This document shows, one piece after another, positions 2,098 through 42,593 of a stretch of DNA of 64,000 nt (the stretch's first letter is position 1; each line of letters opens with the position of its first letter). Under the pieces are notes generated by a model. That model did no database searches and was not told where the DNA came from. It was given only the letters and a program-made list of their open reading frames with translations. The position numbers and the translations under genes were made by a program. Source of the stretch: Thuidium tamariscinum (taxonomy: Eukaryota > Streptophyta > Bryopsida > Hypnales > Thuidiaceae); NCBI GenBank assembly GCA_947034885.2, contig OX344749.2, forward strand, positions 52,481,682 through 52,545,681, in the 5' to 3' direction.

Positions 2098-2214
2098 TTA
2101 AAAACCATAGTCTATGCAAAAGTTAATGCCATATGATAGTTTCTTTTGAAAGGACAAAGCCAATAAAAAAAATTCTTTGACGGACGTTTAGTGACTAAAT
2201 GGGAGAATCCAGAG

Positions 2215-2985
2215 CAGCGATCCCAGAATTGCTTTTGGGAATTAGTTGGGAACGCTATCTCCGTAGGAAAGGGTGGCTATTTCCGCGACTGGCCCCTGAA
2301 AGGGATAAAATATGTTGACTATCTTATGAGTAAAAAAGGGGCAATTTGACTCCCCATTTTTTTTTTCAGTATTGGAAAATTTGCTAAGTCACATGGAAGT
2401 TAATACAGCACTTGTGGCTATACTGTGACTTTGTGTATAAGAGAATTTGCTAAGGCATGTAATCAGAAGTGTATAATTGGCTATATTCAAGTTGTTTTGG
2501 AGTGTTTTTCTTCCATTTGGAAAGAATGAACAATTTTAGGGTTTATTTACAATTTTGTCACTAACAAGGGAGTTGAACCCTTCTTGCAGTGTATGCAAGA
2601 CTGCCCATTTGCAGTGTTAGTGTTCTGCACACACACAAACAAGCCACATTAGTTTGGAAGGGTTAGAATTCAAAAAAAGTTGCTTGGGTACCATAGCCGC
2701 CCAACTGTTGAAGCTCCACGCAGTTGCAATTGCCCCTTCTGAAGTCAAACACGATATTCTGTTTGCTCCCTGTGCAGCCACCTTCAGCTCCAATACCTAG
2801 TCCCGAGAAAGCCTCCGCCAGCCACGCCTCCAGAATACCACAAGCTGGTCAAGGAAATGAGTATTGAGCAACTAGGCCTGCTAATTCTCATGAAAACTAA
2901 GGGCTTAATGGAACTAGAAAGACAACACTGGCAATGATAAGAATCCTAATTAAAGGATACTCCTTTGCTTACTTCTCAGCTCACA
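2215..2985. other. hAT 3' non-coding end
   Basis: This stretch lies between the hAT terminus (CAGCGATCCC at 2,215) and the stop codon of the transposase on the minus strand. It holds no ORF of note. It should contain the 3' UTR and the subterminal transposase-binding region; no clear repeated subterminal motif was recognised by eye. Confidence 0.5.
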
Positions 2986-5900
2986 TTAGGCATCCCCCTG
3001 GCGGCCAAGTTTAACAGCTCCTTTCCAAGAGTTGATAGCCTCTTTGTATGGAAAGTTTCCAAGTGTGAAATAGCTCTGCCCAAACATGCGAACTACAAGA
3101 GGCAAGTGCCTGCCTAATCTATTTCTCTGGGTCGACTTGAGGAACTTCAACGTCGAGAAGCATCTCTCGTCTTCGACTGACCCCAACACAAGACAGCACC
3201 CGATCTCGACAAGGATGAAATACTCCGAAATGAGCTTGCTTAAGTGCCGTGACTGCGACAGTTTGTGCCAGAGTTTGATCACAGGGTTCACATCTAAAGG
3301 CTGCCCACATGCAACCTCACAATTGGCCTTCATGGTCACTTTAAATAACCCTTGCTGAAGGTCCAAGTTTGCAGCTGAGAGCAAAGCAGGGGCAGTAAAG
3401 TCACTACCACCTTCATGTAAAGCTTGGCCGTTGTTAACAGAACGTGCTGTGTAGTAAAAGCTTTTCAGCACTGCCAAGTGGTGAGCGAAGCTCTCATCGG
3501 CACCATCTTGCCTCCAGTACTGTGGGTACACAATACCGAAGGCATCTAGCAATTCCTGTTGAGGGAATCTGCGATCCAATTCATCGCTGAGGCACTGAGA
3601 AATATCTGCCAAAAGCAGCACAGGAGTTCACAAAATCACGAGTGAGTGTCTGAGTGACATGCCGATATGTATCGGCAGTTTCAAAATCACAAGCAAGTGA
3701 ACACATCGGCACTTTCAGGTCCTACGAGTCCAAGAAAAAACAACGCATGAAAAAGGGTACACATCAAGTTCCAGCGTGAACAAGAAAAAAATGTTCATGA
3801 AAAAGGTATAGTCAAGTTCCAGCGTGCAACTCCGAAACACCTGCAGCTTCGAACCACAACATCGGCCACAACAGTTTAAGAGAACACGCTCATTAGGACC
3901 ATATACTATACATAGAACATAATAAAGCCAACAAAAAAAATTGGAAATGTAATATAGACCAACTGAAGCAACTAAGAGCAATAAAGCACATAAATAAATC
4001 ATAAACAATCTAAGAAAAAAAATGGGAAGCATAAAGCTGGCCCAAGATAAACTAAAGCAAACAACAGCAATTAGAGCACATAGCCAGTTAGCCACTAATA
4101 CCACATAAACAATCCAACAAAAAAATTGGAAGTAAAATAAAGACAAAGCAAGAAACTGAATCAACAAATTAACCAAACATACATAACATGAATCTAAAGC
4201 ACCCAATCAGAACTCATTTATAACTTGGAAAGAAACTCAAATATGAAAACACATACATGACATCAAAAACTCAAGAAAAAAAATTGGAATAGAAATGAAA
4301 CAGGGAAGAAAAATACCTGAGAACTGTCGCTCTACTGTGTCCTAGACGTGGTAGAATGCCTCGTGCATCACAAAACTTTCCATCCCCGTGGCTTTGTCAT
4401 GCCAACGTGCATAGACAGTAGTCACACGGAGATTGAACACTAGATGGCATATGCCAGAATCTCCAGGTAATTCCCTCCATTCCATTGGAATTTCAGAAGA
4501 TTGCAATGACACAAGATCATTGTACATGATGAAGTCCTCCTTGCCAAATGCAGTCGTCCTGTCCAAGAACATTCTAGCCAGCTCATGTTGGCAAAGCTTT
4601 ACAGCTTGCAGGAAGTCACATACAAATATGTCACGGCTTTGAGAAAGCTTAATAAGTGCATATACTGCATTCACAAGAGATATGAAGCAGGATAGTGAGA
4701 GAACCATCTCGATATCAGACAGGCAAGCGAAGTTGTCGGCAGCACCGGGAACAGACTTGTGCCTAGGAGCGGCACTCATATCGACACCCATCTTTACCAT
4801 GAGAGTGGCGTACTCCTCCATAATCCGCAGAGCCGGACTTCTCATCGAGATCTAGCGAGTGTCAACATTTCGAACCATCTTATTTGTCTTAGTTTCCATG
4901 AGATTAGCAAGTCTGACAAGCTCAGCATGACACTTGTTACTACGACAGAAGTAGGAATAAATGGATTGAAAGAACCCTTCAAGACGAGAGATCATTGGAT
5001 ATTTCGTGAGTGTCTCAACGACCAAGTTCAGCCTGTGGCTCACGCAACTTGCCCCGAGCGTGAAAGGAGCCCACTTTTCTCTGATCTGTGCCGTGACTCC
5101 AGATCTGGCCCTCTGGAATGTGCTGACCCCATCCGCCCCAAAACACACAAGTTTAGTAGCAATCTCAGCATAGGAAAGACCTCCCTCATTCATCAAAGTC
5201 TACATGATTACACATGTTAGATGATCAGCCGTGCCACTTTCAGCAAGACAGGACAAGTGAAGCAAGTGCGGCTTCCTTTCCCAACCTTGCATTGCATACA
5301 CATGAACAACAATCCAAGAAGTATTATCCACGGCTGTAACTTCATCAGCGCTTATAGAGATGATCCTCGCCATCTACACAATTCCCTTCAAAGCAGTTAG
5401 AACCTGATCGTGCAAGTGCTCGCTCATCTCCCAGCCAGTACTCTTAGACCAATGTCTCCTAGGACAATTCTTAACCTTCAAGTGTTTAAGCAAGAACTGT
5501 TGCCTCTCATAGTCGCACATGGGACGTCCATGGCTTAGAATCTGGAACAGGGTGGAAAACTGCACTTCCTTCCGTTTGAACTCATTGTCCAAGCCCGCAT
5601 GCAACTGTTCCGCCATAGTACCGCCATGCTGCTGGCCTGCCCAGAGCTTGCAAAGCTTGGCGTGCTTGCAGTCCACCTTCACGAATACATCGCCCTTCTT
5701 CAAATGCAGCAATGGTACACCATCTTCTCTACAGGTCCTCTTGCCTTTGTGCTTCTCGAGGTTATCTAACTTTAGCACCAACACCTTCCTCCTTCTCGAC
5801 ATGGCTGTGCAATTCACGCAAACAACACCAGAGAGATTGCCATCCAAGTCGAACTCTCCTTCTGTCCAAGCAAATCTACAAGCCCATACTTCTTGCCATC

Positions 5901-6246
5901 GTCTGGTAATTGTGGCCGCCGTTGTCTTCTTCTTCTTCGATTTCCCAGTGCCCCCTCGTTTCTTCCTCTTACGGCTCATGGAGTCCCCGTCATCGCTGGA
6001 CAAGTCATGCACAGAATCTGCGAGTGGAGGCGACACTACAATATTCTCGGACGGCGGATTGAGAGGATTCGGTGGACAGAGAGACTGAGACAATTGTGTC
6101 TCCGAAACATGAGTAACCTCACGCATACACTCAACCAAGTCAGGACTGGGATTTCGGACCATATACTTCCCGATCCCATTAGGATTTCGGCTAGAGCCAA
6201 AGCAACGAAACCTGAAATTGTCAGGTAATTTTAAGCGAGGAGCCAT
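2986..6246 (-). pseudogene. hAT transposase, BED finger type, four in-frame TAG stops
   Basis: Two exons: 6,246-4,317 and 3,605-2,986, joined over a GT-AG intron (4,316-3,606) in phase, giving about 849 codons. From the ATG at 6,246: a basic nuclear-localisation-like stretch (about 91-108), a BED-type zinc finger (about 117-172; CVNC then H-x5-C), then the hAT core with FGADG and CVSHRLNL. The second exon holds the dimerisation domain (DERCFSTLKFLKSTQRNRL). The frame is continuous but carries TAG at 5,376-5,374, 5,202-5,200, 4,854-4,852 and 4,344-4,342. The third sits in the conserved TRWISM-like motif, where TGG to TAG is the obvious change; the others fit CAG to TAG. Family membership is sure. 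The enzyme cannot be made as it stands, because the CACTA insertion also separates it from its promoter. Confidence 0.88.
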
Positions 6247-6251
6247 CAATG

Positions 6252-8659
6252 CACTACCGGAGAATTCCCTGTCCTTTTTTGCAAAGATGTCGCATACTTC
6301 TGTTGCTAACTACAGTTGGTTAGGTCGTCTTGATTCGGACGAACTACAGCACAGTTCAGTTGCTTCAGACACGTCGGATGCCTTCCTCTAAATACATTGC
6401 CACGCTGTCACTAGGGCTAATTGCGCTTTCACTCTTGCTTGAGGTGAAAATTCCGAATCTTCAGGGTACTGAATCAGCCAAACTTGGATAACAACAACAT
6501 AGAATTCCCTTTGCCAGCGTTATTCATGTAGACTTTGCAGTCACTTAAAATAGGCAGCCAGAATTGGCTGCGTCCTCTAAATCTAGCAAACAAACATTTC
6601 CCATTCTTGTGCCACTTGCATGTTCGGGATTGGCACCTTCTTTGGTTGAGTTCCTTTTCACAGCCTCTTCTTGGCCATGTGGGGTAAAACGACAAGAACC
6701 TTCCCCGAAAGGAGGGCATTACTCCATCTGTTACTGCTGCGGTTCTAGGATGGTACTTTCTTAAATCCGGCACTACCATTGGCCGTGTTCTTCCTGTGCC
6801 AAAATCCTTTTATTCATTTCTTACTAGGTGCATTACTCAAAATCTTTTCTCTGGTACAAAAATCCATACAAAATTAATTTCCGATTTTGAAGGGGAAATT
6901 TACATCCACCGTCCGCTCTGCACAGTTTCAGAGGGCAGTAAGCAACATGCGATTCAGGGTTACTTCTACGTCCCTTTTCCATTTCCTGTAAACATTGAGA
7001 CGACTCTCCTATACCAGACAATACGAACGCCTTCATTAAGTTGTCCCATGACTGCTTCAATGCTTCCACCAAGCTATGCAAGCCATGCATTGCTAACTAT
7101 CACTCCTTACGTGGAACTTGAAAAACACATTGTGCTTCAAAGATAAATTAGTTCACTCATACTGTGTAGGCATCTTTGAAAACACTACATAAGCATACGA
7201 CGGATTATTTCTAACGCACACTGCAGTTCAATACAAAAACTTTCAAAAGTCCACGCATTGCTTGCTTTCAGTTTCTTTCTTCTTCCCGCACATTCCTTTC
7301 ATCCATGTACTCGGTCACTCTTTGTTAACCGACAAGTGAGATAACCTGCGGAACTCAAAGTGCATCCTCCGCCCCACATGAGTAGACGGTGATTTCCCAG
7401 GCACTTACTTCTCTTTCATCTTCCGAACACTGCTTCCAACATTCCCTTGTGAAGAACTGCAGAGGCCACCGTGGTCCTTTCCACTTCCTACTGTGGGCTC
7501 CTTTCACTGATTCAAGGGTTCAAGTCTTCTTCATTACTTGTACACGCCTTCAGTTCCAACATGAACAGAATGCCGTCATGGGTTCATCCCGTTCAAATAC
7601 CTGCAGCAAACAACGCTAACATGTCTGAATCGAAGGACTAACAAGGCACTCAAAAAACAAAGCTCACTTTCATGACAAACAAGGTCAACTACTTCTGTGG
7701 TATAGAGTTTTGGTCCTCTCCGTCACCAGCCTCTATTTCACACTCGTCTCTTTGCATTCTGTAAAACGAACAATAACAACCTACAGGGCTAAGTGGTAAA
7801 ACAGCTATTTATTACAAAATGTCAATTTCATGTACCACCTCCTCCCTTTATCATTCACATACATTCATACCAAACCCAAAAACAAAAACATGTACTAGAA
7901 CATCACATTCTCTGCCCACTTCATGTTCTTTTCATTTCTCCTACGGCTTTTTAGTGCACAACTAGTGCAGTTTCCTTACTCTGTCTACAAAATAGTGGCG
8001 GTTTAGTATACTTACACATGGATGGACTTCACTTCCTACGCGCTCTTTCTCTGCTTTCCTTCTCTGGCGTGAAGCACTGATCTCTCTCTCCGCTTGGATC
8101 GGACTCACTTCCACTTATCTGTACAATGCTCGCAGAGAAAGACGAATTCAGTACAGCAATATGGGTTCAAGGTTCAAGACTTCAAGGATCCCATGTGGTT
8201 TTTTACTTTGAATGTTCGGTGCCTCTACCTTGAACGGGTCACCATTTAAAAACAAAACAAGCCGCTACTCATAGTCACTTACTCACCTTCACTGCATTCA
8301 CATTCCTGTGGACTACATCGAATCAACTTATAACACACCAAAAAATGTAATTGAACACACTTAAGTACTACACCGTGAAGCACTCAGCCATTCACGATGA
8401 AGTGGTTACTCTTCCCTTCATTTGTATTGCGAGTGCACTTATCACATGCCACAATTTCAGAACTGCCTTCTATCACTTCCAAGTGCTGAACCTGTAGCCA
8501 TGCACAGCACCGAACTTATCCTCTTCTTAGTTATTTCAATCGGTTCTTCACATCCTTATTTTAAATTGACTAACGCGCTTTTCAAAGACAAATACCCTCC
8601 GCCTGCTAGTCAACAGGTACGTGAAACAACTGACATTGACACGCCCTCCCCTAAAACCT
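6252..8659. other. CACTA left non-coding flank
   Basis: No convincing gene. Open frames here are short and match nothing recognised. CACTT/AAGTG and TTCACT words recur many times between about 7,300 and 8,640, which may be the degenerate subterminal repeats that CACTA transposases bind; this was judged by eye, without statistics. It would also contain the 3' UTR of the leftward gene. Confidence 0.4.
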
Positions 8660-11600
8660 TCACAATCCGGGAGGTTTGGGGGACCTTACACTTGTCCTCG
8701 CAGCTTCGTCTCGAACGCCATTGTTTCTTGCCACTGGAGGGGGAATCAATGTCGTTGTCAGCACCTCCTGCTCCGCCTCTGCTAAAACAACCGTCTTCGC
8801 TTTCTTCAGAGCCTCCTGCAGCTGCTCCAGTTGAATCTCCATGCTTCGGATGGAATTCATATCCAACGGTTTTGAAGGTGTGATGCCTTGCACTCCTTCT
8901 CTTCTAGAAGCAACTGCACCTGCATTATTGGCGGTCTTTTCTTTCACGTGTCCTCCCTTTCCTGGTTTCCGTGCACCGTCGTAGCCTTTTTTCCTTCGCA
9001 TTTCATACTCCAGTTCGTCAGGGTCTGGCTCTCTGCCCAGTTCACGATATAGTTCCTCCCGGATTCCTTCTTGTCCTCTTGGGCCTGTTCTTCCTTTGTT
9101 CACCCGACAAGCATTGGTGTATTTCATCCTCTGAGAGACCTCCTTTCAATGTGGATCCTCGCAAACACGTTCCAAACAACGCCATATATCTGCATCAAAT
9201 CCAGCAGGACACGAAGCTCCTGCTCTAATGGAAGCCATGAGCTTCGAATGTCTTTGTGTGACGCTCTTACCTGCCACAGTCCTAATGTACGCCCGATCCA
9301 CAAGTGCACTGTACTCGAAGTCCTCTTTCAGCCGGCGTCGTAAAGTTGCCATTGCCTCCTCTGGCTGGTAGCGGATGTTCATTATAGATGGGTCCAATGC
9401 CACGCTCAATTTGTTGATAGCTTGACGCCAAGCTCCCACACCAAAGCTGTATGGAATGCTGTTTACATCCACTGCGATGTAGTGCCCTCACAGTCCCTGC
9501 CGCTCCCTTTGCATTCGCTCGGCTTCCCTTGCGCTTTGCCTTTGCCGTCTCTGTCGCCGCTTTGTGGTTTCATCATCCGATAATTTTGGGTTCTCCTCAA
9601 GCGTCCCACTGTCACGGCCTTCGTTTCCTGCAGGGCTCTCTCTTCGCCGAACCCTACGTCCCAGCCTTCGTTCACGACCACTGCCACTGTCATCATTCAC
9701 ATTGCTTGGGTAACAGTCTTCTTTTCGTGGATACTTACTACACTCCCCACGTTCCCAACGACCCGGCCTCCGCTCCAAATCAAAGTCCTTTCTGCGACCT
9801 CCACTGGCATCATGGTAATTTCTCATGCCCCTACTATCAACCGATCTCTCCCGATAAAACATTGGGCTTCCTCGATTAGCTCTATCTTTCACCACCTTAT
9901 CCCTCTGGTAACAAATACAGATACAACATTAAAACAATGACGTTGAGAGCAGGCTACTATTCAAGAAAGCAGACATGCACAACATTAATCACACGGCATA
10001 CATTTCGTTCCATTCCAAGTTCAAAAATACTTAGACAATCAAACACAGTCGGCCTCTCACCCTTGGTGAATGATCACACTTTCTCTCTGCCGACCTCCCT
10101 CTGCCCTGATGTCTTCTAGAATAGCGCCTATGGTGGCCATATTTATCGTACAAGGACTCATCAGAATCGGAATCGTATGCACGGCGCTCCACAGACCTCC
10201 CTCTGCGTCTGTACTTGTGCTTGTCAATTGACGGAGTGGACTCCAATTCCATGGGCATTTCCATGGGCGTTTCTCCAGGTTCATACGCTTGCTTTCCCTT
10301 CTTCGCATTGTTAACAACATCTCTAAGAGGAGAATTCCGTTGTGGAAGACGACTACACTGTGCTCCTGCAACCCCACATTTCCAAGTGCAAGGACTAAGA
10401 AGAACTCATGACAAAGGATGTGCGAACTTTACCTACCACACAAACTTTCAGTGTCGTCAAATATCCTGACTGTACAGTATACACCTCGTCGGACACGAAG
10501 TATAATCCAAATCCTTGTATGCTTTGGAAATTAAAGTAAATTTCAGTGGAACTCGATGTTCCTGGACAAGGAATCCATACCAGCTTCATTTGAGTGCGGA
10601 CTTCCCTTCGGAGTGGAATTGTCTTGCTCAACAACAGCTCCCACATTCTCTTCCTGCTGAAGAAAAGCACCAGCCGGATTCGGTGCAGACTTAGCTTTCG
10701 GTGGTGGATGACTGCCTCTACGCGAATTGTGTCCACCTTCAGCGTTTTTCTCCCCCACCACCCCATTCTTCAGTTGATGTGCTGTCTGGCGCTCCGTGCT
10801 AGTCATGGACGTGATCTTCATGCCTCTTGGAGAAGGTGAAGTGTTTTTCTTCCTCTTCTGATTTACTTTCTTGCTCGCTGGAGCAGGCTTCTCACTCTCC
10901 CCTGCATTTGATCGCGTGTTTGGTTTCTTCTTCTGTTTCGGAGTCCTCCACACCTCATATGTTTCCTTCTCATTCACCATTTTTTCCCGCTCCACCTTAG
11001 AGAACTGTAAGTGCAAGCAATTTCGGAATTTTTAGGACTGTAACTTCCAAACAGAACTACCACACATGGGCATACACGATCCATGCATTCATGATAGTAA
11101 TTCACTAAAATGTCTACTTAGCACGGAAGAACCTTCACAAATCATGCGGAACTGATTGGGGAAACCAAGGTACCGTGCTTACCTCATTCACATGATCCGG
11201 AAACCTCCGCAAAGGCGCACATTGACGTCCAACACTAGTGAGCTTGGTACGCTGATTTAGCTTTCCCTGTCGTATTCAGAAATCATAAGTCCTTCAAACA
11301 GGATGATTGCGTTACAAACATATGAAGCCAGAGGAAATACGGTCCACCACGAAATCCAGCGCAGCTCAAGACCTGTCTTGAGACCCAATTGATTCCCACT
11401 TTCTGTCAAGGGATGATGGGCTACTTGAACGTTAGATGTTGGAGAGTGAACTGCCCCACACTCCTCACTTTCCTGATCAGGTCTTTTGGAGTGTGGAATA
11501 AGATAAAAACTTAGGAAATATTATGGTTACATTTGGCATTTCATGTGTGAATTCCTGACCCATAAAAATTACCAGATCCTTCCCCTCATTTTGAGGGCCA

Positions 11601-14231
11601 CTCTCATCCCAAGGAGCTAACTATGTCGAACATTTGTTTACTAAACAACTACTCCAATTCTAAAAGAACTATGCTGATTAAATGCTACGATCCATTTTTG
11701 AATGAAGTGGGGTCCAATTAAAACATTTTCTGGTTCTTTCTTTTGATCAGGCTTCGAAAAAGGAAAGGAACATAAGGCCATTTAGTCTACAAATTACCTG
11801 ATGGTATTCCGTCTGCTTCGTCCCTCCTTCACTCTGCACCGAACAATACAAGGAAGTCATTATCAGCCCCAGTCCAATATATAACAAGACCAAATGGTAT
11901 AGATACTACAATTAATTTGTAGCCTCCCAATTGCGACAGTGCAACAAATTTTATTTTCAAAATACTTCTGACATTTCACATATGACATACTATAAGAATT
12001 GAACGAAGCTTCTTTTTTTCGAAGTTGTTTCAGTAACACGATGCAACTCGGAGTTCTTTGGCTGCGGCTCTGTAGTACATTTCCAGTCGTCTGTGGTGGA
12101 CACATTAGTTTGGTAATCCAAAAACCCGGCGGTGGTCACATAGTGGACACAAATGGACCTGACCAATTACAACTGCAAGACCAGGTTCTTAACGTATGAA
12201 TTCCAATTCAAAACCCATTCGGACTACAGGAGTATAGACTATGAACTCAGTGGCGGCAGGTGGTTATTCATTTGTTTCTTATTATTCAATCATCTTCATT
12301 TTCCCTAAAGAACAGAACCGCCGTCCAAAACTCAGATTAGGGTACAGTGGCACTACCTCTATATTGACTACACTGACTCTCTAAGCAGTGTATACACAGG
12401 TGCAACAAGTTTTACATACCAACGGTACATCCCTCTAAAGATATTCCCGTAAGCCAGTGTGGTACGTCTCTTAGAATTCACACTAAAATCTCAGAGTAGG
12501 AAGTGTTCAGAAACGGTGTGCAGTTCAATGCATGTGTCCGCTTTGAACTACATAACAGTCAGTACCTGATTTGATTCGTATAGTCTCAGAGTTGCTGCCC
12601 TTGTCCTCGAATGACGTGAATAGCCTGAAGCCCTCCTCTCCTTGTAGAAGCAGTCAGAAATCGATGAATCTAACTTTAGCAAATTCGTAGCCAAACTTCA
12701 TGACAGGTGTATGCAACCAACTTCATCGCAGCGTCGGTTCATTTAGTCACCTTCTTCACTCGAAACTGCTTAGTACAAGGTATGCCACACCTTGCAGCTA
12801 CCGTACCTTAAGGAAGTTCTCAATTTTTACCTGATCTAATTCCTAACATGCACCTTTGACATGCTGTTCAGACAAACCTTCTAGGCAAACCATCGACCGT
12901 ATTAACCCATTTTGAATTCAGCTTAAAATGGACACGTTTTCAGAGTCCAACGTTCACAAAACCTAATTGACAACGGAAAGGAAGTTCACATACTCACCTT
13001 ATTCACTTGCCTTTCATAACCAGCTTGACGCCTGACCCCCGAAAATAGCGTGGCGATCACGCTACTTGTATCCGACTATGAGAGGTACTCACTAGAGTTT
13101 GGGGATACCTCGGTGCTGGGCCGCCAAGACTCGTCAGAGTCAGAGAATGAACTGCTCTCGTTTTCTTCTATGTCTCTGTCAGGCACCACTTCGGTCTTGT
13201 TCCTTGCTTCCAATCCAAATAATTTGCTAACTCGTGCGTTGTTGGACTTTTTTTGAACTGCAGCGTCTTGTAAGTGAACACCTTCACCCGAACTCTTTGC
13301 GGCAGATACAATATGAGGTACTACGAAACTGATGTCTGTTCTTGGAGGCGGAAGAATACTAGCTGCTCGCTTCTCGGTGGGCTGCGCTGCTGCGCTGGAA
13401 CTTGGTTTATTGTGGTTCCTCTCAGACTGGACTGCGGGGGCGATCACCACTGACGGTGCCGGTACGTTTTCATCCGCTACAGTAGGTACGCTTTTCCTCA
13501 TGTCACGCAGGACACCCGCCTCAGTAACTGGATTAACTCCATCGCCGTCACAGCCACTGCGAGACAGAAGAACAACAGAGGAAATGTAACCTAATGTTTA
13601 GTCTTAATTTTTTTTCTATCGAAGCCTAATTCTGTACAAACCTACTGCTTTACAGAGCGACCACTTGTGTCTATTTTTGATCACAAAGTAAAAACTTGAG
13701 TAGCGACTACAATCCACGCTAACATATTACTGACTAAGTTCCACATTCATCCGTGGAGCGTGCATGAAATTGTGAGGAACTGTGATTTCTCGAGTTCCGT
13801 GCCTTCATAGTCGGCCGTCCTATACTAACGGCTTTCCAATGTCAAACGATGCGCAGCGAAGTTTGTGATTCCAGTTATAGACTACAGCGTTTCCTTTGCT
13901 GTCACAGCATTTATGTTCAGTTAGCAAAAGCATTTGCTAATCCGTCCTCACATAGATGGTGGTCACTCATGCCATGTGAAATTCTGCCCAAATATAGGAT
14001 CGTCGCCGCAATAAGGAAATCACTTTCTCAGGCGGCGTACAACTGGTGTAGTCTTTTGCATGCTGAGCTTCAACAATAGTCGAGGAGGACGCCTTTCTTG
14101 CTGACAAATACGCGACATGGTCGGCAGTTCACATTTTGAGCTCACCTGCTACGCGGAGGGCCCAACTTCTCTGAAATTCTTTCGACCATGCTGTGTAACA
14201 CGTCCCAATTCTCCTGGCACTCTTTAGACAT
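8660..14231 (-). pseudogene. CACTA second protein, Transposase_24-like, broken
   Basis: Multi-exon gene read leftwards. Supported exons: 14,231-14,146 (start MSKECQENWDVLHSMVERIS), 13,556-13,093, probably 12,640-12,566, 11,266-11,183, from 11,004 to about 10,543, about 10,360-10,072, and 9,895-8,660. The first two exons join in phase, as do 11,266-11,183 and 11,004; at least one small exon between 12.5 and 11.3 kb is unresolved. The middle is Arg/Ser/Asp-rich and low complexity. The last exon has the family's hallmark: a basic KYTNACR segment, then RTGPRGQEGIREEL, then ELGREPDPDELEYEMRRKK. A possible coiled coil (MEIQLEQLQEALKKAK) follows. Two in-frame TGA stops in the last exon, at about 9,488 and 9,146, both fit CGA to TGA. 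By analogy with En/Spm TnpA it would bind subterminal DNA; that role is inferred. Confidence 0.7.
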
Positions 14232-14910
14232 TGCAGTTGACTTGCTTTACTCTTGCGGCACCGGCGCGGCCTATCTTACTCTCAATTCCAGCATGCACCG
14301 TTCTGCTCCAGGCTGGGGTATGCAATAGTGTCGTCTTCGTTTGTGGAAGATCAGAGCGAAGTTGTCTTTCGGTGCAGGAGCTTCTGGGGGGAGACGGCGT
14401 TCATCATTACGGACGCAACATTCTTCGTGGGTGAGTCTTCATGATTGACCTGATTGTTTGTGTTAAGAAATGGTTTCATTCCCAGTAACTGCATGCATTG
14501 TCTTAGCAGTCAGTCGGACTGCATTTAAGTTGCAGACTTCTGAAATACTGTGAGATTACGTTTAGGATCTCCAGAAAAACGTTTTCCAAAAGAGATTGAG
14601 GTCATTATTAAAGATTTTATGGACTGATAACATAGATTGAAGACTAGGACGCTGTATTATGAGTCCATAAAATACTCTCTCCAATCGAACACTTCCTTTC
14701 AACGCTGAATTTCCAAACGTACTCATTTCTCAGTTGTCGCTGAAAAGCCTGAATCCTTGGAGATAAACCAAGTTGGAAGTTCCCATAGAGTAAGGGGACG
14801 TTTTCTAGTAAAGGTCATGGGTTCAGGGACACTATCCTCCCTGTGAAGTTAGCTGACAGGTGCGTGCAATATTAAGTTGTTTAGTGGGGGCTAATGATCA
14901 GATTCATTTC
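14232..14910. promoter_or_regulatory. Putative bidirectional promoter of the CACTA genes
   Basis: This is the gap between the start codon of the leftward gene (ATG at 14,231-14,229) and the first rightward ORF. Two divergent genes in one element must be driven from here. A coding-like plus-strand segment inside it (about 14,310-14,432, reading SSFVEDQSEVVFRC and ending at a TTCGTG/GGTGAG donor) may be an additional 5' exon of the rightward unit. No TATA box was assigned. Confidence 0.4.
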
Positions 14911-15249
14911 ATGGAGCAGCACGGAGGACATGAAGTCCAAGGGACATGTATATTGTCTACAGAAGCCGTACCCGCGAGTATCACAGCAGAACCTCATCTA
15001 GGAAAACGTGAAGAACCTGGTCTTGCAGTTGTAATTTTAAAGAAAAAACGATGTCGCATAATTAAACCCCGGGTGGACCCTTTCATAGAGTTACTGGACA
15101 GGCTACTAGAGCAGCAGAGGGCAAAGCATGAGTGCCATGACTCTGCTGTTGAGCAGGCCGTGAGGAAGTTCGGAGATCCTGTAGACTCTGCGCCAAAGAA
15201 GATGATCTCGTACTCTGAATTCATGCGTTTGGTCTCCAAGAAGACCTAG
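14911..15249 (+). CDS. Short ORF inside the CACTA element, unknown function
   Basis: A 112-codon ORF starting at ATG 14,911 and ending in TAG at 15,247-15,249. It lies upstream of the TNP2 exons and on the same strand. The C-terminal half looks like real protein: a basic KKKRCRIIKPR stretch, then a predicted amphipathic helix (PFIELLDRLLEQQRAKHE), then AVRKFGDPV. No family was recognised. It may be a separate small protein of the element, or a 5' exon of the transposase gene with a spliced-out stop. It shows no broken frame. Confidence 0.45.
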   Translation: MEQHGGHEVQGTCILSTEAVPASITAEPHLGKREEPGLAVVILKKKRCRIIKPRVDPFIELLDRLLEQQRAKHECHDSAVEQAVRKFGDPVDSAPKKMISYSEFMRLVSKKT

Positions 15250-15835
15250 TAATGAGTACCGTGGAAGTAGTTTGTACAGTGGACGATGGAGTCCACAAAT
15301 ACCTCTGCAGGAGAGATATCAATCATGGTAGAACTTAAATGAATGAGAACAGGTCCACTTGGACCATGGTTTTCGGAGGTGCTCGTTGTAGGAGCACTTT
15401 GTCAGTAATGCAAATGGTACGCTCCGTTTGGAGCATGCTTTGACAAGAGTACTGAGATATACAATTCCATGTGGTATCACTAAGCTGATTTTCAATTAGG
15501 AGGATGTGATGCCATGTATTTCAATGCCTAACACTCGGACCTGAATGTTCCAGTTGACAATGTCTGGTCGTCCATTACTGTTCTGTTTTTTTGTGGATCC
15601 AAGTCTCCGTGTCCAGTTTCTGTGATTTACGAAATTGTTTTGTCTCCATTGAACAGGGAAGACGTTAATGGCGTCTACCTCCCTATATAACCCTGTTTCA
15701 CTCTACAAGAATGTCTACTGTTCACTGTTTTGACTTCTTTAGAAATGAACTGACACTGCAAACTTAGTTCATAAACTACAGGTGGCATATATGTTGTGCA
15801 CGCACTTACCTCATTCTTCTTGTCTGTGCAGCAAC

Positions 15836-18800
15836 ATGCGTCCACGACGCCTTAGTTCGGCCTACCACATCGAGAGAGCCATTGCTTTGAGGCTCGGGTT
15901 TCCACGATATCCATGTGCTTGTTCTCAGTGTCACGGAGGCAGGACAAGAAGCACCAGTCAAGTAGCAAAGCACCATCGGCAGTATGGAAGAGATCCATAC
16001 CTACCGTATCCGGTATTGGTGAGTTTTTTTTTTCCTGAAACTCCAGAGTTGGCAAGAAGTTTTTCTTAGCTCAATCGGGCGTTGGATGTATGAAATGATA
16101 GTGTCATCACCGTGAAGGCCCTAACTGTTTTAGTCCTTCTTGTCTACCGTGTCCGTGTCTATTTTTCTGGTTGACGACAGAATTTGCTGAGTTTGGCATC
16201 CATTTTGGCAATCCCATGGGAAGGTCATACATGTAGTCATGAATTCTGTCTACTGGCATGTTGCCCGTTTTTGAAAAAACCATATTGCACTCGCTCATTA
16301 AAATTCACTTCAACTGCAGAGGAAAACTTGTTAATTAATACGGAAGGGTGCGGGGTAATATTGCAAACAAAAAATCAGAAGTGGTAGCTTATTCCACAAA
16401 ATCTAATACAACAATAATTAAACTGAAATGTGAATGTGAATCGGAGACCCAGATCCCTTATTTTATTGTACGTATTGTGGTATTGCACATATTGGTTTCA
16501 GTGGGTACTTTCAGAGCCGAAGCTTGGGGTGGACATTGACATGCCTTTAATGTCTTGTACAGACGGTGGACGGGCGGAACATAAGGGGCCCGATCGAAGA
16601 GCCAGAAGCAGGCGAAGAAGAATATGCACGGAGAAGAGACAACGAAGACGTTCCTCGTTACGTCTGGCCGCAAAGAACTGAAGTCGAAGTGGAGCAAATG
16701 GTACAAGATGCATACGCAAGGACAGATGCGATTCATGCAGAAACGTTTGAAGACCCTGGGGAACCTGCCGACGAAGCAAATGCTGCCTCAAATGGTAATT
16801 ATGAACAAAGCGTAGCTGACTTTGAGAACTTGATAGCTGAATCCACCCAGAACGTTTACGAAGGATGTGGGATAAACCGTTTACAAGCGTCCATTGTGTT
16901 GTTGAACATGGTGAATGTATTTGGAGTGCCTTACACCTTTTTGGATGAGCTGTTGCGGTTTCTGGCTGCGGATTTGCTTCCACAATCGAACTGCTTACCG
17001 CGCACAACTTACGAGATGAAGTCAATACTCATGAAGATGGGATTGGAGCACAAGACGATTCATTGCTACTCCTCTGGCCACATGTTATATGAAGGCCCAA
17101 AGAATGAGGATAAGTTGCAGTGTCCTTTGTGTGGAGAAGAACGGTACGTGTCATGCTCTACAACAATCCCCCCAAAAGTACTGAGGTATTTTCCAATAAT
17201 TCCTCGCTTGCAACGTCTTTTTCAGTGCCCGGAGGTCGCTAATCTTTTGAAGTGGCATGCTGCCAACAAGTCACCGGATGGGTACATGCGCTCGGTAGTG
17301 GATAGTCAGCAGTGGGCAGCTGTTGACGAAATAGATCCAACATTCAAGGAGGAGGATCGGAATCTATACATGGGGATGGTAGCGGATGGTGTAAATCCGT
17401 TTAAGAACCAGAGCACAAAGTATTCCATGTGGCCTGTTCTTCTGGTAATGTACAACCTCCCTCTCTGGCTTGTGTCAAAGAAGTTTTTTTATCTCATTGA
17501 CTCTTTTAATTCCTGGAGAGAAAGCTCCGAATGGTGAAGCATTCGATGTCTTCATCACTCCGTTGGTTCGGGATTTGCTCGTTCTGTGGCGAGGAATACA
17601 AACTCTTGACGCTTCCGGATAAGAAGGGAGGAGGCTTTTTCTTTTGAGGGCCATTCTTCTGTAGACCATAAATGACTTCCCAGCGTACGGGCTAATTTCA
17701 GGACAGCAAACAAAGGGTTACAGAGGCTATCCGGTGTGTGTAACAGAAACTTGCGCACTTCACTCGAATGTGTTGAAGAAAATGATTTATTTAGGCCACA
17801 GGAGGTGGCTAAATCCGGAGCACAGGTTTCGTAGGGCAAGAGTGGCCTTCGATGGGAATTCTGAGATGCGTGCACCTCCACGCCGACCATCTGGCCAAGA
17901 CATTCTGGAAATGGGTGAAGCACGGGCAGCGTACACAGAAAGCGGAGGTCGGTAGGATGGAGAAGATGATCTAGTCAAAGAGCATGGGGTCAAGAGGGTT
18001 AGCGCATTATTTCAACTCCCGTACTGGGCGGTAAGCTACAGAAAGCCTAATTGTTAATGTTGTTAGAGAAAGTCGTTTTTTGGGAAGTTCTACTTTGATG
18101 TAGTAGGTTATGAAGTGAGCTTCTCGTTTCTTAAAATGGAAGTGGTACAGTAGTCCGACTGGGTTTTGGAAAAAAGTAGTTTCCGATTGAGAAAAAATAG
18201 GTTGTGTTGAAAGTGATGTATGGTGGTGGTGAACAGAGAAAAAGATAACGAATATCAATGAGGAACAAGTGAGAAGTTAGTTGCTTCGGAAGACAGTAAT
18301 CAATCGTTAATTCAGTGTACATCGAAGTGTCTAATTCGTCATGCTGTAGTCATGATTGATTTGCGTTTTCCTAGTTCATTTGCATGTGTCGATTGAGCAC
18401 ACACCTGAAGTGGACAAGATGGATTGCGGTGATTCTTTTGATTTCAATCACGCATGAACAGGTTACCTGAAGGAAGAGGTTTGTCCCTTGGTTCAAAATC
18501 CCAACTCCCGTTTTATCTTATTCTGAAACCTAGTGTGGATGTTGTGCAGGATCTTTTGGTGCGGCACCTGTTGGATGTAATGCACTGTGAAAAAAATGTT
18601 TGCAAAAACATTTTGAAGACGTTAATGGGTGAGAAGGATTCAGCTGCAGTGCGTTTGGATATGCAGCAGATGGGAATCCGTCCTCAACTATGGCTGGAAC
18701 AAGGACACCCAAACCAACATCGAGTGTGGTTGCCCGATGCACCGTATGTTCTTTCTGCAGTGGACCGAAGAGAATTCATGGAGATACTGCGATCCATTAA

Positions 18801-20960
18801 GACACCATCACGCTATGTCTCCACACTTCATGCCAGAATCAACGATGGTAAGTTACGGGGTCTCAAATCTCACGACTACCACGTACTCATGCAGCAGATA
18901 ATGCCTGTGTGCTTACGAAACATTGGCGACGCTCGAGTAGTTGGCGCTGTAATGAGAGTCAGTAGGATTTTCCAACGTCTTTGTGCCAAGGTTGTTGACC
19001 CTACAAGTCAGCAGCAGTTGATGGAAGATGTTGCAGAGACGTTGTCTACTTTGGAGCGTGAATTTCCACCTGCTTTTTTTGATAGCATGGTCCACCTTAC
19101 AGTCCACCTTGTGGAAGAGTTATTTATCTGTGGGCCTGTGCACACACGGTGGATGTATCCTTACGAAAGGTACTTCAAAGGCCTTAAAGGATTCGTGCGT
19201 AATTTGGCGAAGCCAGAGGGAAGTATTGCGCAGGGGTATCACATGGAGGAGGCTCTGGGCTTTGTAACAGAGTACATGTCTGAGTACAGTCCCACAAGCA
19301 GACGTGTGTGGGACAGCAAAGAAGACCCGTCTATGTCAGATGAGATTGTCGAAGGAAAAGGGCGACTGCGGAAACTGTCCGATCAATTGAGGAAGTGGGT
19401 GCACTTGTTTGTACTCGACAACGCCATTGCTTTGGATGCTTATCGGCAGTAAGTGTCACCCTGAACCCTAGAGTAGTGGAGTTAGAAAAAGAACTCCGTT
19501 GTCATCAAAGTCATGGATTTTTAATGTGGCATGTGAATAGAAAGCGTATCTTGCAGCATGTCTGAAGTTGCACTTGACAAAGGTAGTACGGGATTGTTGT
19601 GATGTGAGGGGACTGTGAGGCTTAGGATGCAGTTGCTTGTTTGGATAGTCATGTCGGGAAATAGGTTACATTCATTTTCCAGGAGTCGTGGGTCAGGTTT
19701 AGAACATCTTTCCAAAATTTTTATGCTTAGAAATGGTCCATTACTTCAGTGTTTCACAGACTTTGCATTTCCGCATTCCCATGTTTATATGCACCGTGAG
19801 TAGTTAGTCTAACATAAAGTGTCTCATGCCAGAAGAAGGAAGTCTCTAATCTGAAATGAAGCAGAAGGTTTGGCTTTCATGAAATGTTTGCTTTAATGAA
19901 GTTCAGGGGAAGTGGGGGGGGTTGCTGTTGGGGCGTCGGGTAGAGTACGTGAAGCACCGAACGGCTGTCAACGAAGTGCCTCCAAATAATTTCAGCCTAG
20001 GTGAACTATCATTGTGTCTTGCATGGGAGGAATATTTACTATGGGTTCTGAAATTTTTCTTTGCATGACAGAGAGCATGAGGAGTATGAAGCACAACTGA
20101 CAACGGAGCGAAGGGTCTTCAGGAGCAGAAATCCAGGAAGACGAGGACGTCCAGCGATTCCTTTCCCTCCCGAACTGCCGGAGCCGAAGCCATTTAATGA
20201 GTGGTTGGAGGAGATCGTGTCGAACAGGGTGAGCGTGAACGAAGATTCAGTGGAAGCAGATGTTGTATGTCTATCGAAGCCCCCATCTGAGTTGGCTACA
20301 AAGTACCATAGCATGTGGGCATTCGGTAATCATTTACGAGTAGCGAGCGCCGAGACTCACTTGACAACATGTGACTCAGGTGTGGCAGCCATTTTCCGAC
20401 GTCTATGCAGAGCAGATCCAAGAGACAGGAACCCGGTGTTAGCTGATGTGGAATATGTTGGGCAGGTACACGAAATCATAGAGTTGAATTATGGTGGATT
20501 ATGCGTCATCGTCCTCCTGTGTAGCTGGATAAAAGCCAACTACAGAGGAAACACTGCTACAATGAAGAAAGACAAATGGGGGTTCAATCTGGTGAATTTT
20601 GCACATCCTTTGCCATTTGGCCCGGAATCTTTTGCCTTTCCTATGCATGTGGAACAAGTATTTTTTGCAGACGCAAGAGAGGACATTGGGTGGAAAGTGG
20701 TTTTGCGCAAAGAAGTGAGAAGTCGGCGTGTGCATGGGAACTTGGGTGCATTTCAAGACGGTGGGATGTTTTCTATGGGATAAGATTCAGAGCACGAGGG
20801 GTTACGTGTTCCTGAAGAAATTTCGGATGAAAACCGCGCACCATTGCCCACGGGTAGGGCAATCCGACATGAAGATGCGTTTGCTCCATGGTTGGATGAA
20901 GGCGTTGCTGCCGACCAGGATCTTGGCGAGTCCGGGACGTCTTCAGATGACGAGGTCTGA
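15836..20960 (+). pseudogene. CACTA transposase TNP2 (Transpos_assoc, TNP2, DUF4218, DUF4216)
   Basis: Four exons in consistent phase: 15,836-16,018, 16,563-18,030, 18,550-19,448 and 20,072-20,960, about 1,150 codons, the usual TNP2 length. Exon 1 gives the transposase-associated domain (PCACSQCHGGRTR). Exon 2 gives TNP2 (LQCPLCGEERY, KVLRYFPIIPRLQRLF, YSMWPVLLVMYNLP, GHRRWLNPEHRFRR, FDGN). Exon 3 completes it (LLDVMHCEKNV) and gives DUF4218 (SHDYHVLMQQIMPV, VHTRWMYPYERYFKGLKG). Exon 4 gives DUF4216 (IIELNYGG, WGFNLVNFAHPL) and an acidic tail. Damage: a one-base frameshift in the T7 run at 17,484-17,490, then TAA at 17,620, TAG at 17,662 (in the conserved LLWTINDFPAYG, so TGG to TAG), TAG at 17,953, and TAA at 20,781 before the tail. 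The real end is TGA at 20,958-20,960. Several stops fit C-to-T or G-to-A decay. Confidence 0.88.
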
Positions 20961-22127
20961 TGGCATTGCGGACTACATTTCGTAGGAAGAATGAAGTGTG
21001 TGAGTTGGTTTTTAAAAATCGTCCTTCCTTATCATGGAGAAGGAGATCTGTTTTTTTGTAGACGTCGGTGTTCAGTAGGCGACCTAACCCCCCTGAGCCG
21101 AAGTGTCATCCGTTTTCTTGTTTTTTAGCCTTTTTTTTTAATGTCCCAGATCCATACAGTGTTGTCGATTTCATTCCTTGTGTGTCTGACAGGTTTGTGT
21201 GAAGCCACTGTAGAGAGAAGCCCCCAAGCTTCAGTCTTTTACTAGTGTGGTGTCAAAATAATGAACCACAGCGATAATTATTGTCGCATGGTATGAATGT
21301 GTGAGGAATAGCGTCTTCAAGGTTTGAAGTCGGCCATCGTTGTGTGACGCTTGGTTCAGGCAGTAGAAGTGAGTGTCTGTCGTGTCTAATATGGCAGAGG
21401 AAGTAGGTAGTCTCCTTGTTGATCAGAGCAATGAAATTATAAATTAGTGCTGTACTTTATTTCCATTTGGCATTGTACATTTCCTACAGCTTGCTTTCAC
21501 TCCGAATTTCCAAGAAGATGGAGCTTTTGTTGTTGTAGGTTGTGAATTGCATTTGTCAGAGCCGTCTTAGTTAGTGAGAGGATTATGTATGTTTGGTATA
21601 TTTGGGGTTGTTTCCTGTGCCAAAATTTTACAGCAGTGAAGGCAGCGGTGAAGTTACCCAAAACCTACTAATAAAATTAAAAGTGATTTAAATGGCAGTA
21701 AATGTAAAAGCCGTGAGGGTAAGTACTGAAACAGGTAATGTTTTTTGTTGTCTCAAAAAAGGTTGCCCAAAACAGTGTAACCACAAGTTTAAAAAAAGGT
21801 GGGTGCCATCAGGTGGCCGAGAGGAACAAATCCACAATCTCCAGAAATTTAACCTGAGTACTTTCTTGTGGGGTCACTTAGTGGGTGCTATTATTTAAAA
21901 AGTAGGTCCGAGAGGGAATACCTAACACCACCCGTGAATGTAGTCTACAGTGCACACTGCCAGCTCAGACACGCATCGCGCTTCATTATTAAAAGTAACA
22001 TAGTTTTGCTGTCTATGTTGATTTCTTATAAATGGTAGTACGTATTGCTGTTTTAGCATTGCGAACAACTGAAATCAACAGAAAACAACAGAGTTAATGC
22101 GAAATAGGGCCCCCCTTTCCAGTAGTG
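20961..22127. other. CACTA right non-coding flank
   Basis: No gene. This is the 3' UTR and subterminal region of the CACTA element, ending at the terminus whose minus-strand reading begins CACTACTGG. Words such as GTTGTTTTCTGTTG near the right end resemble CTTCTGTTGCTAACTACAG near the left end (about 6,300), consistent with inverted subterminal repeats. Confidence 0.5.
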
Positions 22128-22130
22128 ATG

Positions 22131-23342
22131 CCTCACAGTCTCACACTCTCAGAGTCTCAGTGTAATGATGTAAACCAAAACTCAGCAATTGGTTGACACA
22201 CCAAGGAGAAAATCTAACGCCAAAGCGAACACACCACAGAGCACACCGTAAGCAACAAAGTAGTAAGCAATGCCACCAAATGCCTATCGACCTCAGGAGT
22301 GCACACGAAAGCGAACCACGAAAGAGTCTCATAGAAGCAAATGACAGCAAAGACTGAAGTGTGATCGCACATCATCGCAGGTGCAAAGCAAAGAGAAGGT
22401 GGGGTTTAAATTTACCCTTAAACCGCGAAACCATACGGCATTGCGGCCGTTGGCAATGAAAGAGCGCCGAGAAGCAACGATGAGCGATCCCAGAACCAGG
22501 CAAGTGAGGCAACGAATGATCTCTCATTCTCAACAGCTCCCTGAGTCCCTACACGTCTGTCACTGTGGAGTCTGCAACTCTGAATTCAAGAAGCCTTGCT
22601 GCCTCCACACAATCACAGGATTCACAGCCACCAATTCATGAATGTAAGTGTTGTAATGTTGCGCTAGTGCGCCTCGCCGCCTCCAAAATTCATAACGTCT
22701 AGACTCCAGACTCCAGACTTGGAACTTCCGCCAAGGCGCCAATCCGCCATGCATGAAAATTTGAACGCAAGAAGGGAATATGCCGTTTTGAACAGCAATG
22801 AGTGGAGATTGCAGAAGTGCAAATTGCTCAAGGCACGGATCTCGAAAACCACAGAAGGCAGGGATGACGGATTGACAACACTACGGCAAGGCTGAGGAAT
22901 GAGGATTAAAGACGCCATAATCGCCATTATGCCAAGTTAACAAGCTGATTAGTTGCAAATCAAAGCCACAGATTGCAGGAGCACTGGAGCAGTGCAGCGC
23001 TCAGCAAGAGAGCTTTGCTCCCTCCCCCCCCCCAAAACCTAGTTCCCTTCCTGCGAAACCGACGGTGTGGATCGCGCCGCGCCTGCTACATCAACGGTGG
23101 AGATCGCGCCGCCCAGCGAAAGATCAGCGGCCCAGATCGCGCCGAGGCTCCCAGCCAATTAGAAGAGAGCACGTACTCGCGACCCCGGGCACGGATGAAT
23201 GTGAGCTTTGGCGAACGGACAGAGAATTCAGCGTAGATTTTGGCTCAAATGTGCAATTCAAAAGAAATTTCATTATGTACATTTCGCTCTCCAAAAAAAA
23301 AGGTAGATTTGGGGCGCAAATTAGCCTGTTTTGGGATCGCTG
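22131..23342. other. hAT 5' region, displaced by the CACTA insertion
   Basis: This is the upstream part of the hAT element, read on the minus strand towards 22,131 and originally joined to 6,251. It should hold the hAT promoter and 5' UTR. An in-frame TGA lies upstream of the hAT ATG in the rejoined order, so the start at 6,246 looks right. It contains three imperfect ATCGCGCC units (about 23,066-23,145), possibly subterminal repeats. No ORF here was recognised. Confidence 0.55.
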
Positions 23343-23350
23343 ATCCAGAG

Positions 23351-24599: not shown

Positions 24600-25407
24600 C
24601 ATTGCAATGAACGCGTGAAAACGCCACTGCATTGCTCAGATGATCGTAAGAAATAGAATTCTTGGTTTGGAATGAGTGCAGAATTTATTGCACTTCCGTC
24701 CAAGTTTCGATAAGCAAATGGTCATTGATGTGTAGGTCGTACTTGCCCTGTAGATTAGCTGTGTATCCTGCCCATTCTGAGCTCAATTTCAAAATAGGTC
24801 TGAGCAGAAAAAAGACCTGAGCTCATAATTGGTGACCATGTGGTGATGGACAGAGAAGGCTATTATGGGGTACCTATCAGTCTTCAAGAGCCGCATTCGC
24901 TAACTAAGTCCAAATGGTTGAGTTCATAGAATTATCTCGAATGGATTCCCTGGAGCAAGATTTTTATTTTTCTCTTCTTCTGGTCAACATTAATGAAAAA
25001 GACATTAATCCCCCCTGCATTCCTAGCCTATGGCCATCAAACATTTAAACTGATACTGGATGTTGAAGGCCTAGCTAAAGAAGTACATATGAATTTCAGT
25101 GGGTGGGCTATACAATAATTCCCGCATGTTTGAGCAAAGGACATAACATTCTTGAAAGCTTTCTATTTGTCGCATGAACATGTCTCTTTGGTAAAGAATA
25201 TGCGTTATTGCTATCTACTTGTAAGCTTTTTGAAAGAAGAATGAGCGGTAGAGAGGCTTGCAATCGGGGGATCTTGACTCTTCAGTCTTGCTTCACAAGG
25301 GACCCGCCGCGTCCCACGTTGTTTCAAAGTCACTGTGTCCTTGCTTCGATCGGGGCTTGATTGAGATTCATGGTGCAGTTGGCAGGTTTTCAACTCCCGA
25401 ATTGGAG

Positions 25408-25713
25408 ATGAAACCAAAACCTGCAAACGCCAGGCGACTCTCGGGACAACAGTTTTGCAGATGGAAGCAAGAAATGTGCGAACAGGAGCCCATCAGCTTC
25501 CTGTTGGGGCCGGACTGCTGCAACTTCGCCTGCACCAACGTGAAGACCGATATCTTCAATTGCGGATCGTGTGGACGCATTTGCTTCTTCGGAAGCATCT
25601 GTTGCAATGGGGATTGTGTGGACATGTTCAATGATGTTAACCATTGTGGGTCTTGCCTCAATAGTTGCGCATCGGGATCCTCGTGCCAGTATGGAATCTG
25701 TGGGTACCCATGA
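25408..25713 (+). CDS. STIG1-family cysteine-rich protein, N-terminus incomplete
   Basis: From ATG 25,408 to TGA 25,711 it encodes 101 residues. The C-terminal part carries the Stig1 cysteine pattern: GPDCCNFACTNV, NCGSCGRIC, ICCNGDCVDMFND, NHCGSCLNSC, SSCQYGICGY. Stig1 proteins are small secreted apoplastic proteins of land plants (the founding member comes from stigmas), normally with an N-terminal signal peptide and about 130-150 residues. The frame is open upstream to about 25,252, but there is no ATG and no hydrophobic stretch there, so the secretion signal is missing from this exon. Either an upstream exon supplies it (candidate at 24,357) or the copy is a 5'-truncated pseudogene. Confidence 0.75.
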   Translation: MKPKPANARRLSGQQFCRWKQEMCEQEPISFLLGPDCCNFACTNVKTDIFNCGSCGRICFFGSICCNGDCVDMFNDVNHCGSCLNSCASGSSCQYGICGYP

Positions 25714-27247: not shown

Positions 27248-28779
27248 TAATGATACTAGGGACTGGTGCTTGGTATGCTATGCATTCACTGTATCACGTA
27301 TTAATAAAAAAATTTACATATTTGAATAGAATGCCTGATATTGATTTCAATAAGTCCTTAAAATAATCATTTTAAGTATTTTATAAGAATTTTTTCAATC
27401 ATGAATACATGGAAATCTTATTGTCACACAATGTGATATTACAGAAAAGGAGTAGCAATTTGCAATCACTTTTGTAATATCACTTTTTACAAAGAGTGAT
27501 ATTATAAAAATAATGTAGTTGTTGCAATGAAGGTGATATTAAAGAGGATCCACAAGAAGATATAATAGAGGTAGCAAATCCATTGGTTTTCTTGGCTTAA
27601 CACTTCTTTGCGCTTCTATGATTTAGTGCTTTTGTGAGATTTGAGCTTTCATGATATCAACTCTCTAAATTCTAATGATGATTGCATAGCATAGCAAGCA
27701 CCAACTGCTAGTATAATACTAAAATCTCAATTTTGAACCTCAAGTAAAATAAGGATGTGCAATACCAATTTGTTTATATTCAATTAATGATAGAATCCAT
27801 TCTTCAATTGAGGTTTTTTTTAAAGTTTACTAGTATGTTTGAAGAAATTCATTAGTTACCCCAAATTCATCATATCAATCATAAATAAATGTTGTCTCTT
27901 AGAAACTCAAGTATTACTTTGAATGAATGAGGAGGTATTTGAACAAAACATAGGTATGGGAAGCCCTTTCACCATGGCATTGCTAACCATCCTAAACTTG
28001 GATCATAGGAGTGAATTAGTTTATTTACAAAGAGTCATCAATTTGGCTTAGAAAGTTGCAACACTAGGAACTTTGGCTTTAAAGGACCTCCCAACATAGG
28101 TTAATAATGTTATGTGTTCATCACTCAAAACATATGGGCCCTAGAGAGCTGAAGGATAAAAATATAAAACTTTATTGCATGCTAAAAATTACTTGATTAA
28201 CACTCACTATCTTAGTTTGTGTTGGAAGTACATACTTGAAGGTTTGATTTGGCGCTTAAGGTGCTCAAATTGAATTTCCGTGTCAAATTCTCAACAATCC
28301 ATGTCACCTTACACCATTCACAAAATAACATGTGGCCCTTTTTTCCTTTTTTCTTTATTACAAAAATGACATAAATTATGGTGAATCTCACCTTTAGATA
28401 GTGTATTCAAGGGCTTTTCTTTTCATTTTTGAAGAAGTGCCATAGTGGCAATATAACATGTTATAATGGTCCTCCAAATTGCAACATTCATCTACTTATT
28501 GGATGTATAGAATGTTTTCATTCACAATTAGGCAATTTCATCTAATATTTTTTTAATTTCAAAGTTGTCTGGCAATTTCATCCAAATTTTTTAACATTTT
28601 TTAGTCAAATTATTTTTTGTGGTACAATCTGGAACAACCCAAAAGAAAAAAGAAAAAAAGCCCTGGTATATTCCGTATTAACAGAAAGCTCCAGTCCGGC
28701 AAGTTGTTGTGATGATGGGATGTCAAATAAACTTACCAGTAAGTTACTTACTGTATTGTACAGTACAGTACTGTACCCT
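27248..28779. other. AT-rich intergenic DNA
   Basis: No gene signal. There is a palindromic GTACAGTACAGTACTGTAC run near 28,757-28,775, just outside the following repeat copy. Nothing else was recognised. Confidence 0.4.
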
Positions 28780-29502
28780 GAAACGCTGGGCCTATGACCA
28801 CTGGTTTCAGGCCACACTGTCTGTCACTCAGTTTGTTATCATTTTGTAACCAGATGTGTATGAAAATTTTTATTTTTGTTTTTCAGAGATGAAACTGCAT
28901 GTCCTCTGTAATTCACAGAAATTTCAGATTTTTTTGGAGGAAATTGTATTTTATGAATTTTTTGGAAGAAAATTTGAAGAAAAAATCATATCAAACAAAA
29001 AATTACCTCAAAAAATCTAAAAATTTCACCATGTGTGAAAATTATAGTGAAAGTCATCATGGTATAAACTAATTTTCCGTGTATATCTATAATTAGAATG
29101 CAATGGACATTGAAAATACGGCCAAAGTTCAAACTGCAATAAAATATTTAATTTTACGAATTTTTCCAAATTTTCAATTGGAGAATAAACTAGAGTAGAA
29201 GACCTCCATTTCATTAGTTGGGCTCACATTTAAAAAATGTCGTTTTCAAGGAGAAATTTCAGATCCACTCAATTCCTCAAAATACACTAAAATGGCGAAT
29301 TTTGCCATCTGTTTTTCTTAATTACTTCTCAACTACATGAAAGAAAACATCAATTTCACTAAAAATTCAATTGGACACTCTTCATAGCTCAACATGAAAC
29401 ATCATTGGAAAAAAAATGGGTGGAAAAACTACTATCGAGGCCTTTTGCTAGCCCAATGAAGTGAGCCAAAAGCCACAAAATGGCACTGCCGGCACTTAGG
29501 GC
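28780..29502 (-). mobile_element. TTAA-family non-coding repeat, copy B
   Basis: Reverse-complement relative of 1,372-2,097 along its whole length. Its outer end reads, on the minus strand, GCCCTAAGTGCCGGC immediately after TTAA (29,503-29,506), matching CCCCTAAGCGACGCC of copy A. The inner end (CCTATGACCACTGG, about 28,790) matches copy A's CCTATGACCACTAG, but the flanking TTAA is degraded there. Non-coding. Confidence 0.6.
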
Positions 29503-33196: not shown

Positions 33197-33200
33197 TTAA

Positions 33201-42526: not shown

Positions 42527-42593
42527 CTAAATTACATTATGAGAGAAGTTATTATAGTAAAGGAGGATCATTTGCATTCATGATGTTTGTATA

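Follow-up and report, generated by a model that had tools for sequence, protein, structure and literature searches.

A 64-kb window of Thuidium tamariscinum DNA, by which we mean the whole stretch that was analysed, contains between positions 2207 and 23350 two pairs of transposon ends, one pair lying within the other, and this raises the question of which elements the ends belong to and how they came together. The best explanation, which we hold with high confidence, is that two class II transposons are nested, a 15.9-kb En/Spm (CACTA) element sitting inside a 5.25-kb element of the hAT superfamily. The initial annotation had proposed these element types and this nesting, with all four boundaries readable to the base, and our analysis agrees: the ends and duplications of both elements were found at their proposed positions, the inner element is identified as a CACTA by its Pfam matches, and the outer one is recognised as a probable hAT by its ends, its 8-bp duplication and the order of its protein motifs. 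Neither a second copy of either element nor an empty site was seen in the window, which we count against this reading.

Boundaries and surroundings of the two elements

The outer element spans positions 2215–23342. Its length is 21,128 bp with the insert included and 5,249 bp once the CACTA element and one copy of the ATG triplet are subtracted, which is an ordinary size for a hAT element; the consulted part of one source gives 2.5–5 kb (PMC3942097). It is flanked by an 8-bp target duplication, ATCCAGAG, which had been predicted and which begins at exactly 2207 and 23343 (2207–2214 and 23343–23350); these are the only two occurrences on the plus strand of the 64-kb window, and the minus strand has none. 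The terminal inverted repeats are perfect (11 of 11 bases, starting CA) and read CAGCGATCCCA, a string that occurs twice in the window, at 2215–2225 on the plus strand and at 23332–23342 on the minus strand. The latter copy closes the right arm (22131–23342, minus strand), which would hold the leader of the transposase gene and the region upstream of it. When the whole window was scanned for perfect 11-bp inverted repeats lying 80 bp to 25 kb apart and flanked by identical 8-mers, two matches were obtained, the hAT element itself and one within a self-symmetric palindrome at 32456–33201, which places the hAT boundaries well above chance. The palindrome, 0.75 kb long and 87% self-complementary, resembles a foldback or MITE element.

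An empty site, with the flanks joined through one ATCCAGAG, was compared with the whole window and none was seen; besides the window's own flanks, the only matches crossing the junction were short and weak (28775–28883, E 0.97; 61904–61966, E 0.36). An AT-rich repeat on the left flank of the hAT element, with matches to 1365–2146, ends short of the insertion point. This AT-rich family is present at 1368–2084, just left of the hAT element, and again at 28789–29506 and 47772–48377, the copies lying in both orientations; they were 78–80% alike in one comparison and 75–77% alike in the comparison with the joined flanks, which placed the two further copies near 28.7–29.5 kb and 47.7–48.5 kb. Within the right arm, at 23058–23144, a 22-bp unit is directly repeated, in three copies that are at least 82% alike and have the 10-mer CGGCGCGATC in common on one strand; the count of three for this shared 10-mer was matched in 1 of 200 shuffles.

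The CACTA element occupies 6252–22127 on the plus strand. At a measured 15,876 bp it has the 15.9 kb first claimed for it, and complete CACTA elements are described, in the part of the source consulted, as usually exceeding 10 kb (PMC10741241). Its ends, CACTACCGGAGA and CACTACTGGAAA (reverse complement), are imperfect, with 10 of 12 bases alike, and both copies of the 3-bp ATG target duplication that had been proposed can be read, at 6249–6251 and 22128–22130. By themselves, the end motif and the 3-bp duplication are near chance: the window holds 144 CACTAC...GTAGTG pairs, and flanking 3-mers match in three of them, against 2.25 expected (144/64, with even base use). Among these three, the extended ends agree best in the pair at 6252–22127 (10 of 12, against 8 and 7 in the others), and TNP2, DUF4218 and a DUF4216 match lie between them. 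En/Spm elements usually, if not universally, have subterminal repeats. In the terminal 300 and 700 bp of the present element, repeated 8- and 10-mers did not exceed in number those of mononucleotide shuffles, a count that diverged repeats would escape, and one 15-bp stretch is common to both ends in the same orientation. Further inside the element there is a 31-bp inverted pair (12165–12195 and 15006–15036), 97% complementary, with one arm within the open frame 14857–15249.

Several other features were observed to the right of the nest. A STIG1-like open frame (25252–25713; Pfam Stig1, E 3.9e-21) lies about 2 kb from it, and a frame at 34086–34505 has a match to the class II aldolase N-terminal domain (Pfam E 1.1e-4) and is presumably DEP1-like. 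At 55892–61510 there are fragments of a gene for a sodium/calcium exchanger with EF hands, which we take to be NCL-like. Taken together, the STIG1-like frame, the exchanger fragments and TNP2 with DUF4218 and DUF4216 point to a probable nuclear genome of a land plant. A second dispersed repeat family is represented at 41818–43287, 47073–47502 and 62356–63095, partly as inverted pairs, with longer matches 74–81% alike. No match in the window was returned by Rfam, at gathering scores, or by ARAGORN.

Genes of the two elements

The outer element carries a transposase-like gene on the minus strand, predicted to consist of two exons with 849 codons before a TAA. Exon 1 (4317–6246) is separated from exon 2 (2986–3605), which contains an ERCFS...RNRL motif and the TAA end, by a predicted intron of 711 bp (3606–4316) with GT and AG ends; these splice sites are read from the sequence only. 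Three hAT-like motifs follow each other in order along the gene, GADGVS at 5139, CVSHRLNL at 5046 and ERCFSTLKFLKSTQRNRL at 3168, and we take GADGVS, CVSHRLNL and ERCFS...RNRL to be typical of hAT transposases. When all six frames of the window were scanned, using patterns drawn up once the protein had been inspected, the GADGVS and ERCFS...RNRL patterns were found nowhere else and the CVSHRLNL pattern once elsewhere. The joined protein matched no Pfam family, and pieces of it gave one sub-threshold Pfam match, to DUF7530 (E 0.065). Nothing significant was found in the PDB, where the search returned a single hit, to a lectin (E 0.6). A relative of the exon 1 protein was not confirmed among viral contigs or among genome contigs, nor one of exon 2 among plasmids, nor one of a single TNP2 piece among viral contigs; because the collections searched hold viruses, prokaryotes and plasmids and the elements are from a plant, this absence of relatives says little.

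The assignment of the outer element to the hAT superfamily, which we regard as probable, rests on its ends, the length of its duplication and its motifs. Transposases of this superfamily have an RNase H-like core and a C-terminal dimerization domain. It could be argued that the element instead belongs to another superfamily with 8-bp duplications, as its protein has no significant match in Pfam or the PDB. We find this very improbable, since the hAT-like motifs occur in order within one gene and the 11-bp ends start with CA and are accompanied by an 8-bp duplication.

In the inner element, the TNP2 gene lies on the plus strand. A Transposase_21 region (16551–18030, Pfam), whose right end is predicted from a GT donor, is followed by a continuation with DUF4218 (18550–19448, within the open frame 18442–19452) and by a 3′ part with the DUF4216 match (20072–20783, within the open frame 20052–20783), the splice ends of both being predictions as well. 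Transposase_21 is matched in three pieces covering positions 1–73, 84–113 and 129–209 of the 213 in the profile (E 3.7e-23, 3.6e-5 and 2.3e-22), of which the middle one, at 23.5 bits, is below the cut-off of 28.6. Downstream, DUF4218 is matched at E 4.9e-33 and DUF4216 at E 1.5e-6 (29.1 bits, just below its cut-off of 30.6); a frame upstream of TNP2 has a sub-threshold match to Transpos_assoc (E 0.54). The TNP2 gene is damaged: its frame shifts at a point between roughly 17495 and 17530, and three in-frame stops follow (17620, 17662 and 17953). The left half of the element contains minus-strand open frames (8660–11031) that have no convincing family match and that may represent a second CACTA gene. 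A match of one of them (8660–9145) to Glu_synthase, at 21.4 bits against a cut-off of 20.4, was rejected as spurious; it covers 67 residues and 68 of the 369 profile positions.

The hAT gene is also interrupted, by four premature stops in exon 1, all of them TAG (first bases 5376, 5202, 4854 and 4344, minus strand), with no frame change in the 849 codons. TAG is the only stop that can be obtained in this gene by C-to-T decay at CHG sites. In context-free models, the chance that all four stops are TAG is about 5% with uniform substitution and 6–7% with a transition or C-to-T bias; it rises to 41% if decay affects CG and CHG sites equally, and the outcome is certain under CHG-only decay. We consider the four TAG codons no more than suggestive of CHG decay, on the strength of four events and with a regional index that does not single out the hAT element. 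This index is calculated as TAG plus CTA divided by the sum of TAG, CTA, CAG and CTG. It takes the values 0.40 and 0.29 for the arms of the hAT element and 0.39 for the CACTA element; in the flanks it is 0.80 on the left, 0.38 on the near right and 0.78 at 26–33 kb. It gives no support to a special CHG decay in the hAT element. It was dropped as evidence on the order of insertion, as it does not separate the two elements. We are rather doubtful of the fuller proposal that the outer element belongs to a hAT lineage of plants which has diverged beyond the reach of the Pfam models, and that its four TAG stops record silencing by CHG methylation.

Position of the CACTA element and order of the insertions

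The target triplet at 6249–6251 is 2 bp upstream of the hAT start codon (6246–6244, minus strand), and the CACTA element therefore cuts the gene off from its leader and upstream region, with 5 bp of leader preceding the start of the CACTA sequence. When the hAT arms are joined across the insert, an in-frame TGA is found six codons before the ATG, as expected if the sequence from 22131 onward is leader, and for this reason we place the insertion in the 5′ leader. We suggest that the hAT element, 5.25 kb long, would have inserted by cut-and-paste and generated the 8-bp target duplication, and that the 15.9-kb CACTA element would then have inserted into the hAT 5′ leader, 2 bp before the start codon, generating the 3-bp duplication; this second insertion would have severed the promoter side from the hAT gene. 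We infer the insertion mechanism of both elements from the superfamilies to which they are assigned. As both transposase genes are interrupted, both copies are probably non-autonomous, judging from their sequences, and a transposase provided from another source could still mobilise the ends of both.

The duplications mean that the CACTA element must have entered an existing hAT element. The initial annotation had gone further and considered the order, hAT first and CACTA second, as fixed. The part of that claim which concerns the two elements stands, but the boundaries do not show that the hAT element was already at the present locus, because a CACTA-bearing hAT moving in as a 21-kb unit would leave the same four boundaries. 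According to this alternative, the CACTA element joined the hAT element at another locus and the 21-kb unit then transposed here, which makes one insertion at the locus and not two. It predicts four boundaries identical to those found, and the perfect hAT ends and the 8-bp duplication also fit a late arrival. Against it, a hAT element of 21 kb would be a long one, given the 2.5–5 kb stated in the part of the source consulted (PMC3942097), and the unit would have needed a transposase from elsewhere, the gene of this copy being interrupted. We therefore think a composite move unlikely, and two successive insertions at the present locus are the simpler reading. It could also be asked whether a false join makes up part of the nest, repeats being the usual place of assembly errors. 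Such an artefact is extremely improbable: there is no N anywhere in the 64-kb window, and hence no marked assembly gap at the joins of the nest, and the duplications and end pairs of both elements are preserved intact across the four junctions, which is not expected from a random join. We accordingly retain the reading of the locus as a CACTA element nested in a hAT element.

The nest among known transposons

The nest is a correct and ordinary case, nested transposons being common in plants. It leaves our knowledge of the hAT and CACTA superfamilies unchanged, and its interest lies in being a clean example of one DNA transposon severing another from its own promoter side. It can be used as a reference for annotation, and if relatives of the two elements are found, the steps of the nest could be ordered. 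A literature search for the CAGCGATCCCA string returned only papers that are unrelated by title and the beginning of the abstract, and the hAT family with these ends may thus not yet have been described under these letters in the literature searched.

Compared with the hAT superfamily, which includes Ac/Ds of maize, Tam3, Tip100, hobo and Hermes, the outer element is alike in its 8-bp duplication, its short perfect inverted ends and a size near 5 kb without the insert, but its protein, unlike theirs, is not recognised by Pfam-A. The C..H and ERxFS motifs are common to the superfamily and the outer element. Ac, Buster and Tip are named as subgroups of hAT in the consulted part of the source (PMC3942097). 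The inner element resembles En/Spm (CACTA) elements with TNP2 in its CACTA...TAGTG ends, its 3-bp duplication and its matches to Transposase_21, DUF4218 and DUF4216; it differs from them in that no excess of subterminal repeats was detected and in that TNP2 is damaged.

In repeat-rich plant genomes, the nesting of transposons is described as very common, with LTR retrotransposons as frequent targets and DNA transposons as possible ones (both from the consulted part of PMC10741241). On wheat chromosome 3B, nested insertions have been mined with CACTA elements included, and the consulted part of that study reports a low accuracy for the CACTAs, with 13% sensitivity and 40% specificity (PMC4290129). 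The present locus is like other plant nested transposons in that one element lies inside another, and it is unlike them in that both partners here are class II elements.
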